A stretch of 20,475 bases of DNA. It comes from a virus. Made by a program: the position numbers and the translations under genes. This document shows positions 6,193 to 20,475 of this stretch, piece by piece (within the stretch, counting starts at the first letter, position 1; every line of letters begins with the position of its first letter). The notes below the pieces were generated by a model that worked only from the letters and a program-made list of their open reading frames with translations, was not told where the DNA came from and did no database searches. The stretch is taken from the IMG/VR virus record IMGVR_UViG_3300029267_002779, positions 1-20,475 of that record; one strand, written 5' to 3'.

Positions 6193-6759
6193 ATGATCCA
6201 GGAACTTATTGAACAAGTACTAGGAGGTGATCATCCAAGAGATGTAATTAATAGTATTGTTGAAGAGGATCGAGGCTTAGTTGCTGAGATTCCGTATTCA
6301 TCTGTTTTTGATAAAAGAAATAAATTTGTATATAAATATGTCAAAGATGAAAATGTTTATAAGATCACTTATACTGGAAATGTAGGAGATCAACCTAATT
6401 TTTTTGGGTCATTCAAATTAGAGAGACAAGCAAAGGAGGAAGCTGAAAGGCTTAATAAACATCATCAAGATATACGTAGATTTCATCAATTTAAAGAGGA
6501 ACCTTCTAAGAAAAAGATTGTTAAAGAACCTGTAGTAAGGAGGAAGAAAAAGAGACCTAGTTTTAAAGAATTAGATAGAATTGAACAGTCTGTCAGAAGA
6601 AGTGGTAAAAAGTCAAATAGGATTGCTTTTGATGCTATAAAATCGATGTTTCAAGGACAAGATCCTGATGATCCCACAAATACTAAGTATTGGCATGATC
6701 CTATAATAGCTAAAAAAGCTTATACTGTAATTGTTAATGCATTAGAAGGTAAATTTTAA
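6193..6759 (+). CDS. LIEQVL-motif family protein, long form
   Basis: This 188-aa protein starts at ATG 6193, with AGGAAG at 6181-6186 upstream. It has three parts. The N-terminal 24 residues are the shared motif (IQELIEQVLGGDHPRDVINS, then IVEE). Residues about 30-90 are a small domain with IPYSSVFDK, KITYTGNVGDQPNFFGSF and a helix ERQAKEEAERLNKHHQD. A lysine-rich linker (about 105-125) leads to a helical C-terminal region, KELDRIEQSVRRSGKK, absent from its two neighbours. The function is not recognised. Its location between sheath and tube genes says virion or assembly. A 78-base piece of it was copied to 7142-7219. Confidence 0.6.
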   Translation: MIQELIEQVLGGDHPRDVINSIVEEDRGLVAEIPYSSVFDKRNKFVYKYVKDENVYKITYTGNVGDQPNFFGSFKLERQAKEEAERLNKHHQDIRRFHQFKEEPSKKKIVKEPVVRRKKKRPSFKELDRIEQSVRRSGKKSNRIAFDAIKSMFQGQDPDDPTNTKYWHDPIIAKKAYTVIVNALEGKF

Positions 6760-6773
6760 AGAGGATAATTAAA

Positions 6774-7092
6774 ATGATCAACGAACTAATCGAACAAGTA
6801 CTAGAAGGTGATCATCCAAAGGATGTGATTGAAAGTTTTATAAAGACATTGAGACCTGGTGGGAGAGGTAGAATTAGTAAAATTCCTTTAGAGACTATTT
6901 CGGATGCTGATAAGTTTACATATGAAAAAGATGAATTGAATCCTGGTTATTTTGTTGTTACTTATGATGGTTTTGATGTAGGAGATCAGAATAACTATTT
7001 TGGAGATTTTGATTCAGAAGCTAAAGCAAAAAAAACAAGTTGCTGATTTAAATAAGTTGTTAGACAAAAGACGTAAACTAAAAAGAAAGTAG
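6774..7092 (+). pseudogene. LIEQVL-motif paralog with an apparent frameshift in an A8 run
   Basis: ATG 6774 follows GAGG at 6761-6764. The first frame ends at TGA 7044-7046 (90 aa) with the abrupt end AKKTSC. The A run at 7028-7035 is eight bases. Reading it as seven continues in frame as QVADLNKLLDKRRKLKRK to TAG 7090-7092, which aligns with the end of the paralog at 7253 (LNNYLNQQRGLYSKLKRK) and gives nearly the same length (105 versus 106 aa). The gene is thus broken, mis-assembled at the homopolymer, or rescued by slippage at A8. Its central domain (SKIPLETISDADKF, VGDQNNYFGDF) is otherwise well conserved. Confidence 0.7.
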
Positions 7093-7252: not shown

Positions 7253-7573
7253 ATGATCAACGAACTAATCGAACAAGTACTAGAAGGTCAACATCCAAAG
7301 GATGTAATTAATGAGGTTATGGACTTTTCGTCTAAAGAAAGAGGGATGATTAGTAAAATTCCTCTTAGTTCTATTTTAAAGAAAGGTAATGAGTTTATTG
7401 TTAAATTTGATAAGAAGGAAAATGAATACATAGTTGTATATTCTGGTAATGTAGGCAACCAACCTAATTTTTTTGGATTTTTTACTAAAAAAGAAGCTGA
7501 TGATGAGGTTAAATTATTAAATAATTACCTTAATCAACAAAGAGGTCTTTATAGTAAGTTAAAGAGAAAGTAG
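7253..7573 (+). CDS. LIEQVL-motif family protein, short form
   Basis: This 106-aa protein starts at ATG 7253, with GAGG at 7240-7243. Its leader and first 16 codons are almost identical in DNA to those of the 6774 paralog, with one early change (EGDH to EGQH). The domain after the motif reads SKIPLSSILKKGNEF, YSGNVGNQPNFFGFF, then a charged helix and a basic end. It is the intact short version of the family. It lies one intergenic spacer upstream of the tail tube gene, and a copy of that spacer (7090-7133 versus 7571-7614) also follows the 6774 paralog. A cassette of gene plus spacer was therefore duplicated in tandem. The function is unknown. Confidence 0.6.
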   Translation: MINELIEQVLEGQHPKDVINEVMDFSSKERGMISKIPLSSILKKGNEFIVKFDKKENEYIVVYSGNVGNQPNFFGFFTKKEADDEVKLLNNYLNQQRGLYSKLKRK

Positions 7574-8974: not shown

Positions 8975-9158
8975 GCTGCACAGTGTTAGGGACCAAGCTA
9001 GGTTAATTTTTGACTTAGTTCATTATGGGGGGTTCCAATACTGTGATGTTCTTAACATGAAACCTTTTGAGAGAGATTACTACCATGAATTAATTAATGA
9101 ATCTAGAAAAGAGAACATTGAATTTCAGATGGCTCTACACGATAAGAAGAGAAAGTAG
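8964..9158 (+). CDS. Frameshift extension of the gp26-like protein (C-terminal domain)
   Basis: This frame encodes 64 residues ending at TAG 9156-9158. It includes VRDQARLIFDLVHYGGFQYC, DVLNMKPFERDYYHELI and a charged helical end. The Y..F.Y.d.l.M..fER.yy...l pattern is familiar from small phage proteins encoded next to baseplate and tail-assembly genes. The only ATG in this frame is at 9057, after the conserved YGGFQY part. No GTG or TTG occurs earlier in the open stretch, and a TGA closes the frame a few codons above 8957. Translation of the conserved part therefore seems to need frameshifting from the upstream gene, giving a fusion of about 313 aa. Independent translation of only 33 residues from 9057 is the alternative. 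Confidence 0.6.
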   Translation, partial: VLTKLHSVRDQARLIFDLVHYGGFQYCDVLNMKPFERDYYHELINESRKENIEFQMALHDKKRK

Positions 9159-14785: not shown

Positions 14786-14987
14786 ATTAAGGGAATTAGG
14801 ATTAGAGACTGATAATATAAGGTCTGATGTAAGAAGATTAGGTAATGAAGAATTAGTAACTTATTTATTGTTATCAGACAGACATTGGGTTAATAAGGGT
14901 AACCATAATTGGATATTTAGTACCTCAGTATATGAAGAATTATTAAGTAGATTAAATAATATAAATAATCGTACTATGGATTTCTAA
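14760..14987 (+). CDS. Small hypothetical protein
   Basis: This 75-aa protein starts at ATG 14760, overlapping the end of the previous gene by 26 bases, with a weak ribosome site; coupling is likely. The sequence is helical, with SISRLRELGLETDNI followed by RHWVNKGNHNWIFSTSVYEE. Its stop overlaps the next start as TAATG, which ties it to the wedge gene. No family is recognised. Confidence 0.45.
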   Translation: MNLKNSISRLRELGLETDNIRSDVRRLGNEELVTYLLLSDRHWVNKGNHNWIFSTSVYEELLSRLNNINNRTMDF

Positions 14988-16863: not shown

Positions 16864-16896
16864 TTGACAAAAGATTGGCGGATGCTACTATATAAT
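16864..16896 (+). promoter_or_regulatory. Sigma70-like promoter
   Basis: A perfect TTGACA (16864-16869) is followed by TACTAT (16886-16891, 16-base spacer) overlapping a perfect TATAAT (16891-16896, 21-base spacer). It lies in the 139-base gap between the hub gene and the 89-aa gene at 16932 and points toward the latter. It is the only good host-type promoter I found in the window and marks the change from structural to non-structural genes. Confidence 0.6.
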
Positions 16897-16931: not shown

Positions 16932-17201
16932 ATGTTTTGTTCAGAATGTGGAAAAATAACTTTTGAGCCAAAAAATGAAAAGAGAGAAAGATGTAAATGT
17001 AATTTTAAAAATATATCAGTAGAGGAATACTTTCGAGGATATCTTGAGAGTGAGGTAATAGAATTATCTAGAGTTACAGATCGTAAGTCTATTATTATTG
17101 ATATTATCAATGAGGCCAAAGAAGAAAAAATAAAGCTAGGTTATCATGATATAAACGAGTACCTCCAGGATATCCTGGAAGCCAATCACGACTACGAATA
17201 A
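16932..17201 (+). CDS. Small zinc-finger-like protein, first gene after the promoter
   Basis: This 89-aa protein starts at ATG 16932 with AAGGAGA upstream. The N-terminus has FCSECGKI and RCKCNF, a CxxC...CxC arrangement for one zinc ion. The remainder is helical and acidic (VEEYFRGYLESEVIELSRVT, then DIINEAKEEKIKLG). As the first product of a sigma70-like promoter it is probably early. The function is not recognised. Its 3' end contains a 16-base perfect palindrome, TCCAGGATATCCTGGA (17164-17179). Confidence 0.6.
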   Translation: MFCSECGKITFEPKNEKRERCKCNFKNISVEEYFRGYLESEVIELSRVTDRKSIIIDIINEAKEEKIKLGYHDINEYLQDILEANHDYE

Positions 17202-17205
17202 AATA

Positions 17206-17220
17206 TTAGTTTAAAACTAA
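17206..17220 (+). repeat. AT-rich palindrome before tRNA-like element B1
   Basis: TTAGTTT and AAACTAA flank a single A, giving a short AT-only hairpin directly after the stop of the 89-aa gene and 11 bases before the tRNA-like element. Similar weak AT hairpins precede elements A1 and A2. Confidence 0.4.
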
Positions 17221-17231
17221 AATAGCTTATT

Positions 17232-17276
17232 ACCTACCTGGTTGGGTAGAGTAAGGTTCGATTCTTCCTATAGGCA
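17232..17276 (+). ncRNA. tRNA-like element B1 (no anticodon arm, imperfect copy)
   Basis: This 45-base element aligns with element B2 at 20011. It has a 5' strand ACCTA, D-like hairpin CCTGGTTGGGTAG, T loop TTCGATT (17257-17263), 3' strand TAGGC (17271-17275) and discriminator A. The T stem AGTAAGG/CTTCCTA pairs only near the loop and the first acceptor pair is A-C, so this copy is weaker. After it, CACTGATTG and AACAACA are shared with B2, then an AAGGAG ribosome site and the gene at 17314. No CCA is encoded. Confidence 0.65.
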
Positions 17277-17313
17277 CTGATTGAACAACAACAACTGTCA
17301 GAAGGAGCACAAA

Positions 17314-17616
17314 ATGTTGGACGTAGACTTTGGTGAGTTCTTGGGACCACAAGGTCCTAGTAAAGAAATAGTTGAAAAGCAAAAAAAGATCCTTACCAAG
17401 GCCAAACAGTTGGCCTTGGCGATTCAAACATCAAAAGAAATAATGAACTGGCTCAAGGAGAATCGCCTCGAGCTAGTCGATGAAAGAATTTCGGCTCCGT
17501 GGGGGGAGTTCTACCTCACGGAGGTAGTAGAACAAGCCGAAGAGATCAGCTCCCCAGTGCGGCAAGTCCTGGAGGAATACATTAACTATCTGCTTTATGG
17601 AGATGGAGATGAGTAG
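17314..17616 (+). CDS. Hypothetical acidic helical protein
   Basis: This 100-aa protein starts at ATG 17314 with GAAGGAG (17301-17307). It is mostly helical: SKEIVEKQKKILTKAKQLAL, then NWLKENRLELVDERI, FYLTEVVEQAEEISSPVRQV, and an acidic end. The function is not recognised. The 3' part (17461-17580) is about 55% G+C, far above most of the window, which suggests separate origin or codon selection. It lies between tRNA-like elements B1 and A1. Confidence 0.6.
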   Translation: MLDVDFGEFLGPQGPSKEIVEKQKKILTKAKQLALAIQTSKEIMNWLKENRLELVDERISAPWGEFYLTEVVEQAEEISSPVRQVLEEYINYLLYGDGDE

Positions 17617-17617
17617 T

Positions 17618-17641
17618 TTAGTCTAACTTAAAAATAACTTA
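17618..17641 (+). repeat. Left copy of a 24-bp inverted repeat
   Basis: Its reverse complement occurs at 20261-20284 with 23 of 24 bases identical. It starts two bases after the stop of the 100-aa gene and ends nine bases before tRNA-like element A1. Part of it (17620-17626) can pair with 17639-17645 as a local hairpin. Confidence 0.7.
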
Positions 17642-17649
17642 GATTATTT

Positions 17650-17695
17650 GCCTATCCCTGGTAGGTAATACAAGGTTCGATTCCTTGTATAGGCA
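17650..17695 (+). ncRNA. tRNA-like element A1 (no anticodon arm)
   Basis: This 46-base element folds as acceptor GCCTA (17650-17654) with TAGGC (17690-17694), a 14-base D-like part TCCCTGGTAGGTAA, and a T arm TACAAGG-TTCGATT-CCTTGTA (17669-17689), a perfect seven-pair stem. Read in tRNA numbering this equals a seven-pair acceptor with one mismatch plus a five-pair T stem, twelve pairs in all as in real tRNAs. Discriminator A is 17695 and no CCA follows. The helicase ATG comes six bases later with no Shine-Dalgarno sequence. There is no room for an anticodon arm. Confidence 0.8.
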
Positions 17696-17701
17696 CTGAA
17701 A

Positions 17702-19804
17702 ATGAAAGTTCGATTTTTACATAATCTCTTCATATGCGATTCGTCGTATGAAGAGAGACATCTCCCCAAGTCAGCTGGTTTTAGGTGGCATGGGGGGAGC
17801 TGCTGGGTACCTGAAAAGTGCCCAGCATGTAAGGCTGGACTTGGTAAGCTTTGGTGGACCGATGATTCCACCAAAGCCCTAAAGTTAGCCGAGTACTTTG
17901 ATGACTCGGCTAAAGAGGCTACTGTAGATTGTGTAGCCTCAATTGAAAAGTCACGGTCTATTTCCTCAGATCGTGATTTACAATCTCCAGATAACCTGAG
18001 CTATCTCCCTTACCAAAGAGCTGGTATCGACTTCGCTCTTGGTAGGGAAAATACATTGATAGCTGACGAGATGGGTTTAGGTAAAACTATCCAAGCTCTT
18101 GGCGTGATCAATAATGATAGTTCAATCAAAAGTGTCCTTATTATATGCCCAGCTTCTCTAAGGCTAAATTGGCAAAAAGAAGCTAAAAAATGGCTAGTAA
18201 GAAATTTTACTATTCAAGTATGCAAAAGTAAGTTAGATCCTAAAGCGGATCTAGTAATTTGTAACTATGAAAAGATCAAGGGAAATTTAGAGAAAGAACT
18301 AAAAAGTAGAAAATGGGATCTTATTATTATAGATGAGGCCCATTATTTAAAAAATCCAAAAACAAAGCGTAGTAAATCAATTTTAGGGGTCCGTCCTACT
18401 TGGAAAAAAGAAGGAGGACAATGGATCGAAAAAACCCCTAGAGTACCTGGTGTGGTAGACTCTTGTAAAAAACGAATCTATCTCACAGGTACTCCAATAC
18501 TAAATAAGCCTATTGAGCTGTACCCCCTTATTAGTAGTCTAGATCCTCAAACCTGGAGATCTAGATCTTATTATGCCAAGCATTTCTGTGATGCTGGTTA
18601 TAATGGATATGGTTGGGACGAGAGCGGAGCACGGAATTTAGATGAACTTCAAGATAAGCTCCGTTCTACTATCATGGTGCGCCGGCTAAAAGCTGATGTA
18701 CTAAAGGATCTACCTTCTAAAAGGCGACAAATTATCGTCTGCGAATCCAAAAAGTCTGATCTATTGTCGGAAAAAGAGATTTTTGAGGCTACTGGTAAAT
18801 CCTATCAAGATGTAGTCGCTGATCTTGAAAAAGGATTTGTAGGTAGTTTCGAGGAGCTTTCTAACTTACGTCATAGCATAGCTAAGGCAAAATTACCTTA
18901 TGTAATCGATCATATCCAGAGTATGATCGATAGTGGGGTAAATAAGATTGTAGTATTCGCTCACCATCATGATGTGGTAGATTCTATTTATTCTCAGTTT
19001 TCGAATATCGCTGTAAAACTTGATGGAAGAATGAGCGAAAATAAAAAAGACGCCTCTGTCAACTTTTTTCAAAATGATTCTAACATAAAAATATTTATCG
19101 GTAGTATAAAAGCTGCTGGTGTTGGGCTAACTCTTACTGCATCATCAAATGTAGTGTTTGCGGAGCTAGATTGGGTACCGGCTAATTTAGTGCAGGCCGA
19201 AGATCGATGCCATCGTATCGGCCAGCAAGATTCAGTACTAATCCAACACATCGTACTTGATGGTAGTCTAGATCAAAGAATATGCCAACTAATAGTAAAA
19301 AAGCAGAATGTAGCGGATAAAGCTCTGGATATTGAAACTAAGGTAGACCTGAGTTCTGCTAAAGAAAAAGTAAAAAAAGATCAAGAAAAATCCAAAAAAC
19401 AGTCAAAAGAAAAAATAAAAGTAACCGAAAAAGAGGCTATATCTTATACACAAGAACAGAAGGATTGTGTGTTAGCTTGTCTTAGAGTTCTTGCAGCTAA
19501 TTGTGATGGGGCGCGGACAGAAGATGGACAAGGATTCAATAAACTAGATACTAATTTTGGTAAATCTTTGGCTACATCTGTTGAACTCACAGATAAACAA
19601 ATGAGGTATGCTGTAAAATTAGTGAGAAAATATCAACGTCAGCTAGATAAAGATGTAGTAGAGATTGTACTAGGTAAATCTAGTAAGAAAAAAGTCAAAG
19701 AAACTATAAGAAAAAAGGGAAATAATAAAAAAGTAGAAAAAAGTATTGTAAAAAATAAAAAGAAAGCTAAGATGAATAAAGATGAGACACACTGGCAATT
19801 TTGA
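17702..19804 (+). CDS. SNF2-family helicase/ATPase with N-terminal DUF5710-like module
   Basis: This 700-aa protein starts at ATG 17702 directly after element A1. It has the SNF2 motifs: Walker A DEMGLGKT (122-129), Ia VLIICPASLRLNWQKE, II DEAH (211-214), III YLTGTP (about 260), IV KIVVFAHHHDVVDSI, V IGSIKAAGVGLTLT, VI QAEDRCHRIGQ (about 498-508). It should translocate on double-stranded DNA. Residues 1-65 carry KSAGFRWHGGSCWVPEKCPA, like the small module in front of phage SNF2 and SMARCAL1-type enzymes. A later domain has DGARTEDGQGFNKLD and LTDKQMRYAVKLVRKYQRQL, typical of phage members. The end is lysine-rich. DNA of the N-terminal part (17761-17880) is about 55% G+C. Confidence 0.9.
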   Translation: MKVRFLHNLFICDSSYEERHLPKSAGFRWHGGSCWVPEKCPACKAGLGKLWWTDDSTKALKLAEYFDDSAKEATVDCVASIEKSRSISSDRDLQSPDNLSYLPYQRAGIDFALGRENTLIADEMGLGKTIQALGVINNDSSIKSVLIICPASLRLNWQKEAKKWLVRNFTIQVCKSKLDPKADLVICNYEKIKGNLEKELKSRKWDLIIIDEAHYLKNPKTKRSKSILGVRPTWKKEGGQWIEKTPRVPGVVDSCKKRIYLTGTPILNKPIELYPLISSLDPQTWRSRSYYAKHFCDAGYNGYGWDESGARNLDELQDKLRSTIMVRRLKADVLKDLPSKRRQIIVCESKKSDLLSEKEIFEATGKSYQDVVADLEKGFVGSFEELSNLRHSIAKAKLPYVIDHIQSMIDSGVNKIVVFAHHHDVVDSIYSQFSNIAVKLDGRMSENKKDASVNFFQNDSNIKIFIGSIKAAGVGLTLTASSNVVFAELDWVPANLVQAEDRCHRIGQQDSVLIQHIVLDGSLDQRICQLIVKKQNVADKALDIETKVDLSSAKEKVKKDQEKSKKQSKEKIKVTEKEAISYTQEQKDCVLACLRVLAANCDGARTEDGQGFNKLDTNFGKSLATSVELTDKQMRYAVKLVRKYQRQLDKDVVEIVLGKSSKKKVKETIRKKGNNKKVEKSIVKNKKKAKMNKDETHWQF

Positions 19805-19817
19805 AAAGGAGACAACA

Positions 19818-19997
19818 ATGAAAACTGGAAGATATGAGAACGAAGATCTAATCAAAGCAAAAGAGATGATAACAGAGGCAGTATCCTATGCTAAAGAAAT
19901 TGCTAATCCAGATTTATCAAAAGTAAGTAATAATGACGATATCGCTTGTGATATTGTATATTTGTTGGAAAATAGCTTGAAGTTGTTGGAAAGATAA
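19818..19997 (+). CDS. Small helical acidic protein
   Basis: This 59-aa protein starts at ATG 19818, 13 bases after the helicase stop, with a strong AAAAGGAGA ribosome site (19804-19812). An upstream in-frame ATG at 19782 lies inside the helicase gene and is less likely. It is predicted to be two helices (DLIKAKEMITEAVSYAKEIA and CDIVYLLENSLKLLER). No family is recognised. It is the one gene here not preceded by a tRNA-like element, and is probably cotranslated with the helicase. Confidence 0.6.
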   Translation: MKTGRYENEDLIKAKEMITEAVSYAKEIANPDLSKVSNNDDIACDIVYLLENSLKLLER

Positions 19998-20010
19998 AAA
20001 GTAACTTGTT

Positions 20011-20055
20011 GCCTACCTGGTTGGGTAGTAGGGAGTTCGATTCTTCCTATAGGCA
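20011..20055 (+). ncRNA. tRNA-like element B2 (no anticodon arm)
   Basis: This 45-base element has acceptor GCCTA (20011-20015) with TAGGC (20050-20054), D-like hairpin CCTGGTTGGGTAG (CTACC can pair with GGTAG), and T arm TAGGGAG-TTCGATT-CTTCCTA (20029-20049), seven pairs with one G-U. Compared with type A, four T-stem pairs differ but all still pair, which is covariation supporting the fold. Discriminator A is 20055. A normal AAAGGAG ribosome site and the gene at 20090 follow. Confidence 0.8.
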
Positions 20056-20089
20056 CTGATTGTAACAACATTGTAAAAGGAGTGAAACA

Positions 20090-20248
20090 ATGGAAAAAGA
20101 ATTTTATGATGATATGAAAGAAATTGGAGCGGAAAAAGAATTTTATGATGATATGAAAGATTTATTCAATAATGACTATGAATTATACTTAGAGAAATTT
20201 TATGAATGTCTGGAGGATTTATACTTAGAGAAATTTTATGGATGTTAA
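20090..20248 (+). CDS. Tiny acidic protein built from two internal duplications
   Basis: This 52-aa protein starts at ATG 20090, with AAAAGGAG at 20076-20082. A 29-base segment is repeated exactly (20093-20121 and 20132-20160, period 13 codons, encoding EKEFYDDMK). A 22-base segment is also repeated (20183-20204 and 20219-20240, period 12 codons, encoding LYLEKFY). Both periods keep the frame. The protein is acidic and aromatic. The function is unknown, but frame-preserving recent duplications with a good ribosome site suggest it is translated. Confidence 0.6.
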   Translation: MEKEFYDDMKEIGAEKEFYDDMKDLFNNDYELYLEKFYECLEDLYLEKFYGC

Positions 20249-20260
20249 TGTCTGGGGGAT

Positions 20261-20284
20261 TAAGTTATTTTTAAATTAGACTAA
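20261..20284 (+). repeat. Right copy of a 24-bp inverted repeat
   Basis: This is the reverse complement of 17618-17641 with one difference. Its first seven bases (TAAGTTA, 20261-20267) can also pair with TAACTTA at 20288-20294, giving a hairpin just upstream of element A2. Confidence 0.7.
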
Positions 20285-20302
20285 AGCTAACTTATCTTAT
20301 TT

Positions 20303-20348
20303 GCCTATCCTCGGTAGGTAATACAGGGTTCGATTCCTTGTATAGGCA
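20303..20348 (+). ncRNA. tRNA-like element A2 (no anticodon arm)
   Basis: This 46-base element is nearly identical to A1: acceptor GCCTA (20303-20307) with TAGGC (20343-20347), D-like part TCCTCGGTAGGTAA, and T arm TACAGGG-TTCGATT-CCTTGTA (20322-20342). The one T-stem change from A1 turns an A-U pair into G-U, so the fold is kept; the other two changes fall in the D loop. Discriminator A is 20348 and only two bases separate it from the next ATG. Confidence 0.8.
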
Positions 20349-20350
20349 CT

Positions 20351-20475
20351 ATGAAGTATAAACTTCAATATGCTGGGAAGCGATTGGAAGCTCTAGATGT
20401 AATAAGAGTTTCTGGCGCTAAATTGGAAAGGGACTCTATAGTTTCTTTCCAGTCTACAAGGCAATTGGAGTACTG
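20351..20475 (+). CDS. Start of an unidentified gene (partial, runs off the window)
   Basis: ATG 20351 opens a frame of 41 codons without a stop to the window edge (KYKLQYAGKRLEALDVIRVS and onward). There is no Shine-Dalgarno sequence; the ATG is two bases after the tRNA-like element A2. The same arrangement before the SNF2 helicase makes this start credible. No family is recognisable from the fragment. Confidence 0.5.
   Translation, partial: MKYKLQYAGKRLEALDVIRVSGAKLERDSIVSFQSTRQLEY

Follow-up and report, generated by a model that had tools for sequence, protein, structure and literature searches.

The window analysed here, the 20,475 bases of IMG/VR virus record IMGVR_UViG_3300029267_002779, encodes contractile-tail genes (sheath and tape measure) and, at its right end, a module in which small genes surround an SNF2-type helicase, and all four of its transfer RNA (tRNA)-like elements lie inside this helicase module. 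These elements and their counterparts in other phages are probably tRNA-like processing signals between cistrons, where tRNA 3'-end processing of the host would cut after the discriminator base (N73). Each is a minimal tRNA mimic in which a 12-base-pair (bp) acceptor plus T helix is combined with a canonical T loop and a GG-bearing D-like loop, and the anticodon arm is missing. An earlier note on this DNA had proposed tRNA-like gene punctuation and had named beforehand the absence of copies in relatives and of covariation as grounds for giving it up; copies in other phages and covariation were both found, and the proposal is supported. The four elements of the window are as follows.

17232..17276, + strand: element A1, a degenerate tRNA-like copy with 8/12 pairs.
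17650..17695, + strand: element B1, with acceptor GCCTA/TAGGC, T stem TACAAGG/CCTTGTA, loop TTCGATT and discriminator A.
20011..20055, + strand: element A2, with acceptor GCCTA/TAGGC, T stem TAGGGAG/CTTCCTA, loop TTCGATT and discriminator A.
20303..20348, + strand: element B2, with acceptor GCCTA/TAGGC, T stem TACAGGG/CCTTGTA, loop TTCGATT and discriminator A.

All of them are present at the coordinates that the earlier note gave, in the order A, B, A, B and not B, A, B, A as it had them. Their 3' part, GTTCGATTCNTNNTATAGGCACT, has exactly four + strand copies in the window and none in 100 dinucleotide shuffles, even when 3 mismatches were allowed, and a chance origin of the set is therefore excluded. 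The twelve-pair acceptor plus T helix ascribed to the whole family is found in B1, A2 and B2 (5 + 7 pairs), all three of which end in A and have a canonical T loop and GG in the D-like loop, and is incomplete in A1; the changes in the T stem between A2 and the B types preserve pairing, as had been described. ARAGORN and Rfam gave no match at the window elements, and no intrinsic terminator (GC hairpin plus T run) was found at them on the + strand.

Forty-seven distinct elements were gathered from approximately 17 lineages, although, because the phages are not independent samples (13/47 elements come from one contig, G024, described below), independent events are fewer than these counts suggest. 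In an alignment of 20 elements built by sequence alone, 97.1% of the cells are paired and the covariation score is 0.736, versus 0.163 for shuffled data. A 38-element alignment, which includes acceptors other than GCCTA and was fitted to, and is hence biased towards, the first model, has 94.8% of its cells paired and a score of 0.797, versus 0.174 when shuffled and at most 0.19 for slid partners. Acceptor sequences vary freely among the elements, the gap between the two 12-bp strands measures 8-22 nucleotides (nt), and GG is present in the middle segment of 45/47 elements (shuffled mean 31.9, maximum 39 in 500 shuffles). Since N-1 and N73 pair 13 times among the 47 elements, compared with 13.2 expected from composition, the helix ends at 12 pairs. 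N73 is A in 36/47 elements, N74-N75 is CC in 0/47, and CCA is encoded by none, the bases after N73 being CTGA, CAAA, TTCC and similar. Among the features of canonical tRNAs, the elements thus have the 12-bp acceptor plus T helix, the T loop TTCRANT and GG in the D loop, and lack the anticodon arm and the four-arm cloverleaf. They also lack a tRNA-like domain joined to a tag open reading frame (ORF), the hallmark of transfer-messenger RNA (tmRNA). ARAGORN scans reported neither tRNA nor tmRNA at the elements, and Rfam RF00005 did not match them.

The breadth of the family was examined with the search pattern GCCTA-N16..24-TTCGATT-N7-TAGGCA, in which the T stem is left free and was scored as present if at least 6/7 pairs occurred among the free bases. 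The pattern matched 24 stretches in IMG/VR viral contigs, 22/24 with the T stem, and 21 stretches in 257 Gb of bacterial and archaeal genomes, 3/21 with the T stem, whereas chance pairing would yield a T stem in approximately 1% of matches by our own estimate from a 3/8 chance per pair. The three T-stem-bearing matches of the bacterial and archaeal set are the array phage contig G024, one Calditrichia metagenome-assembled genome (MAG) and one Actinomyces MAG. Therefore, the elements belong essentially to viruses.

Two phage contigs carry arrays of elements. G024 is a 32.9-kb hot-spring cyanobacterial phage contig whose tape-measure-like protein has matches in phages of Aphanizomenon, Planktothrix and Nodularia, and its elements are the same as those in a contig binned with a Thermosynechococcus MAG. 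It holds approximately 15 elements. G005 is a 78-kb Bacteroidota-type phage contig, with a topoisomerase-like protein nearest to that of Flavobacterium phages, and its nine elements, of which six have TTCGANT loops and the other three ATCGTTT or ATCGTCT, fall within 6.5 kb. The usual order in both is gene, element, leader and gene, always on the coding strand, and nearly all array elements lie between co-directional genes; from copy to copy the sequence changes and the helix covaries. In the isolate Planktothrix phage PaV-LD, an element at 14804-14850 lies between ORF024R (stop 14799) and ORF025R (start 14888); it is kept in related contigs, and its leader hairpin, ATTCCCGAAAGGGATTT, is shared with G024.

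Variant loops were observed in each of these phages. In G005 (L030 6032-6073, 9999-10039 and approximately 9027-9069, minus strand), A54 and T58 (or C59 variants) replace T54 and A58. In G024 (L028 19562, 16400 and 15520, minus strand), the variant loops are TCGCT, TCACT or TCGCG. PaV-LD has a second element (L108, which is PaV-LD 10000-22000, approximately at 6850-6890) with an inverted T loop, AGTCGAA for TTCGACT, while the related contigs (L109 1354) have the normal orientation, as if the PaV-LD hairpin had been flipped.

That the elements are functionless decayed tRNA genes or mobile repeats seems barely credible. The window copies are similar to each other and A1 is degenerate, as might be expected of such relics; however, the elements of G024 all differ in sequence and yet keep pairing, GG, T loop and discriminator, placement recurs over approximately 17 lineages, and the covariation contradicts this explanation. 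Another proposal, that the elements act in trans as decoys or sponges for tRNA-targeting defence or toxin enzymes, is very improbable as well. Phages do encode counter-defence tRNAs, and the elements display an elbow and an acceptor end. On the other hand, their acceptor sequences differ freely, their sites on the coding strand between co-directional genes, in register with stops and leaders, indicate a role in cis, and without an anticodon they would be of no use against anticodon nucleases, so that the nuclease decoy offered as an alternative in the earlier note is disfavoured.

The tRNA-like fold sits at gene borders on the coding strand, as in tRNA punctuation and t-elements. Among the 43 elements with an identifiable upstream ORF, the upstream stop codon falls in the interval from 13 nt ahead of the element to 14 nt into it in 37; it lies inside the element in 11/43, often in the 5' acceptor strand, and the window copies and many others are clear of it. 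The leader to the next ATG mostly measures 18-45 nt. A stem-loop begins at an offset of at most 2 after N73 in 18/47 elements, compared with 3.6 expected from shuffled leaders and 2-4 in downstream-shifted windows; in G024, PaV-LD-like contigs and L011, the first paired base of this stem-loop is usually the second base after N73. Cyanophage leaders have a 5' stem-loop one or two bases past the discriminator, followed by a Shine-Dalgarno sequence and the start codon, and the leaders of Bacteroidota-type phages are short, unstructured and A/T-rich.

Based on these features, we propose that each element in the nascent polycistronic RNA would fold into a tRNA elbow and acceptor end, and that host tRNA 3'-end processing would cut after N73. 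RNase Z would be the likeliest enzyme because no CCA is encoded. It has been reported that RNase Z makes contact with the tRNA elbow and processes precursors that lack CCA (PMC4810234), and that RNase P RNA cleaves hairpins comprising an acceptor, a T stem and a T loop (PMC11143913). The real tRNAs of one element-bearing phage contig (L020) also lack CCA, and a partial RNase Z gene, at a contig end, was found in the MAG holding G024. The cut would give the downstream cistron a defined 5' end, which would be followed in cyanophages, after one or two bases, by a protective stem-loop and would open a short, unstructured A/T-rich leader in Bacteroidota-type phages. Such a new end of the messenger RNA (mRNA) would carry a 5'-monophosphate, and a 5' stem-loop would shield it against 5'-end-dependent decay. 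The 3' end of the upstream cistron would be capped by the tRNA-like fold, and elements just before a new promoter may mainly form 3' ends. In G024, a loop-variant element is followed by a perfect sigma-70-like promoter, TTGACA-17-TATAAT (15515-15487), as would fit an element that forms the 3' end of the upstream message.

RNase P may cut at base 1 as well. In a fully symmetric form of punctuation, RNase P before base 1 and RNase Z after N73 would release a stable mini-tRNA of 40-50 nt, similar to the situation in mitochondria. The 12-pair coaxial helix with its elbow acts as substrate ruler for both enzymes (PMC11143913, PMC4810234), and the window copies and many others do not overlap the upstream stop. 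Nevertheless, a 5' cut would yield nonstop mRNA in the 11/43 cases with the stop inside the element, and the R73-CC motif for RNase P is missing, and we regard symmetric cutting as unlikely, though deserving of consideration. Because a cut at base 1 destroys the message where the upstream stop lies inside the element, we propose that cutting occurs mainly at the 3' side. A 3' (RNase Z-like) cut is favoured over the symmetric pair by the leader hairpins in register with N73, the absence of CCA and the stops in the 5' acceptor strand. The likelihoods that we assign to these two explanations overlap in part because both predict a cut after N73.

Several observations weigh against processing by 3' cleavage. 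Position 1:72 of A1 is A-C, 3/7 of its T-stem positions are unpaired and its fold is no better than those of shuffles (z = +0.45), so one of the four window copies is degenerate. When folded with RNAfold, a check suggested along with the original proposal, B1 and B2 do not have the tRNA-like fold as their minimum, the D-like arm capturing the acceptor 5' strand; for B1 the alternative fold is computed at -16.0 kcal/mol versus -13.0 kcal/mol for the tRNA-like one by a program that ignores tertiary contacts, and a competing fold is thus present in both elements as modelled. The start codons after B1 and B2 lie 6 and 2 nt past N73, and a cut would leave near-leaderless mRNAs. Most of the other phages found carry a single element and no array. 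The palindrome that follows the element in the L004 family is also found behind promoters where no element is present, so this hairpin is a leader module that accompanies both kinds of 5' end and is not tied to cleavage. A perfect palindrome, TGTATGATAATCATACA, is repeated in leaders and at intergenic sites in the L004 family (L065 and L069), after promoters and also after the tRNA-like element. Finally, that the host's own enzymes would cut substrates this short and with so little D arm is a prediction.

Alternatively, uncut elements might act in cis on translation or mRNA stability: the tRNA-like fold, directly upstream of the start codon, would attract or hinder ribosomes or would alternate between acceptor pairing and a D-arm hairpin. 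Most elements have a start codon within approximately 45 nt, both the window and the L004 family show competition between the D-like hairpin and the acceptor strand, and a tRNA-like riboswitch acting on translation, yjdF, is known (PMC9142559). However, such a role needs neither exactly 12 pairs nor the absence of CCA, no conserved ligand pocket or sequence is present outside the tRNA elbow, and the leaders range from a full Shine-Dalgarno sequence to short A/T-rich stretches, hence there is no shared mode of translation. Regulation by uncut elements appears improbable.

Processing of the kind proposed has partial precedents. Mitochondrial tRNA punctuation likewise involves tRNA-shaped elements at coding-strand gene borders, a 12-bp acceptor plus T domain and compact polycistronic genomes, whereas the phage elements are dedicated, non-decoding and without an anticodon arm, they occur in double-stranded DNA phages of bacteria, and their cleavage is predicted. 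Plant mitochondrial t-elements and the MALAT1/MEN-beta mascRNA are non-decoding tRNA-like folds that direct the formation of the ends of longer RNAs by RNase P and RNase Z. The phage elements resemble them in being non-decoding tRNA-like folds but have no sequence relation to them, form arrays of many different copies and occur in bacterial hosts; the best match of the Rfam mascRNA-menRNA family (RF01684) to the elements was 18.4 bits, compared with a cut-off of 42.5. YrlA RNAs, a group of bacterial Y RNAs, also mimic tRNA with a module that lacks the anticodon arm but are longer, free-standing RNAs with a Ro-binding stem, and Rfam scans gave no YrlA match at E values up to 10 in the window (17200-20400) or in L030 (5900-12300). 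Cleavage by RNase P of bacterial polycistronic mRNA and of the C4 antisense RNA of phages P1 and P7 is mentioned, with reference to other work, in PMC11143913. These cases, one phage RNA included, show a bacterial tRNA-processing enzyme acting on non-tRNA transcripts, although they concern individual substrates and not a family of dedicated intergenic tRNA-like elements. We found no earlier description of such phage elements in our searches of open-access papers, a result that does not establish that there has been none.

Further searches extended the comparison. Two leader-anchored patterns gave 85 matches, comprising 48 ordinary full tRNAs, 25 sequences without a T stem and 12 mini elements, and through one such pattern the single elements of Bacteroidota-type phages were recovered. 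A full-length tRNA thus stands at the site of other phages' mini element in 48/85 of these matches (L115-L193), which suggests that full tRNAs can fill the same punctuation role. The R2 search gave weak matches in RM378 (E value 0.004) and phiLo (E value 0.017) and none in the isolate phages CL131, kac65v151, FPSV-S1, MN1 and mumin6-1; its matches in Microcystis phage Mwe-JY26 were rejected, as they sit in a cluster of ordinary tRNA genes. BLAST of one element against annotated phages mainly returned T arms of real tRNAs, with no match covering 80% of the element, and sub-threshold matches to Rfam Plastid-ycf2 were discarded because they are on the opposite strand.

The window phage itself yields no comparative data, since an exact search of viral contigs for its 3' motif found no further copy, its helicase has no close relative among the viral contigs, and its tail sheath has there only one contig with an identical protein and one distant relative. 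The best-covered relatives of the helicase are from Thermus and Rhodothermus phages (approximately 36% identity). The other features of the helicase module are listed below.

16864..16891, + strand: promoter-like site, TTGACA, 16 nt and TACTAT, with TG before the second hexamer; a consensus match only.
16932..17201, + strand: 89-amino-acid (aa) ORF, the first gene of the module, of no known family.
17277..17313, + strand: leader with a Shine-Dalgarno sequence (AGAAGGAG), downstream of A1.
17314..17616, + strand: 100-aa ORF with an ATG start, of no known family above the cut-off.
17702..19804, + strand: SNF2-family helicase of 700 aa, its ATG 6 nt past the B1 discriminator.
19818..19997, + strand: 59-aa ORF, starting 13 nt after the helicase stop and without an element of its own.
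20056..20089, + strand: leader with a Shine-Dalgarno sequence (AAGGAG), downstream of A2.
20090..20248, + strand: 52-aa ORF with internal duplications (EKEFYDDMK twice and LEKFY twice).
20351..20475, + strand: ORF running off the contig, its ATG 2 nt past the B2 discriminator (sequence read directly).

It had been claimed that an element precedes every gene of the module except the 59-aa gene. This is correct for the genes after the first; the first gene (16932) is preceded instead by the promoter-like site at 16864-16891, and its start is the only one with a 10-of-12 promoter match and no element. A TrmK match of the 100-aa ORF (17314..17616) was rejected because it is under the Pfam cut-off. 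Elsewhere in the window, small paralogues with the common N-terminus M(I)NELIEQVLEGDHPKDVI are encoded at 2215-2562, 6193-6759, 6774-7046 and 7253-7573, three of them in tandem and the fourth more distant.

Punctuation of transcripts by tRNA-shaped structures is textbook knowledge for mitochondria, and we did not find it described as a systematic feature of bacterial viruses; the principle appears here in a new form and setting, and an RNA family is added that ARAGORN and Rfam miss. On balance, we favour the view of a general layer of phage gene expression, in which anticodon-less mini-tRNAs in phages of cyanobacteria, Bacteroidota-like and other hosts would recruit the host's essential tRNA-maturation enzymes to divide operons into mRNAs of one or a few cistrons, each with a designed 5' end and a 3' end capped by the tRNA-like fold. 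If cleavage indeed takes place, phages would exploit tRNA-processing enzymes that their hosts cannot easily lose, and the production of separately tuned mRNAs from long early operons would be explained. The elements would then be natural examples of the smallest tRNA mimics and might provide compact processing signals for synthetic operons.

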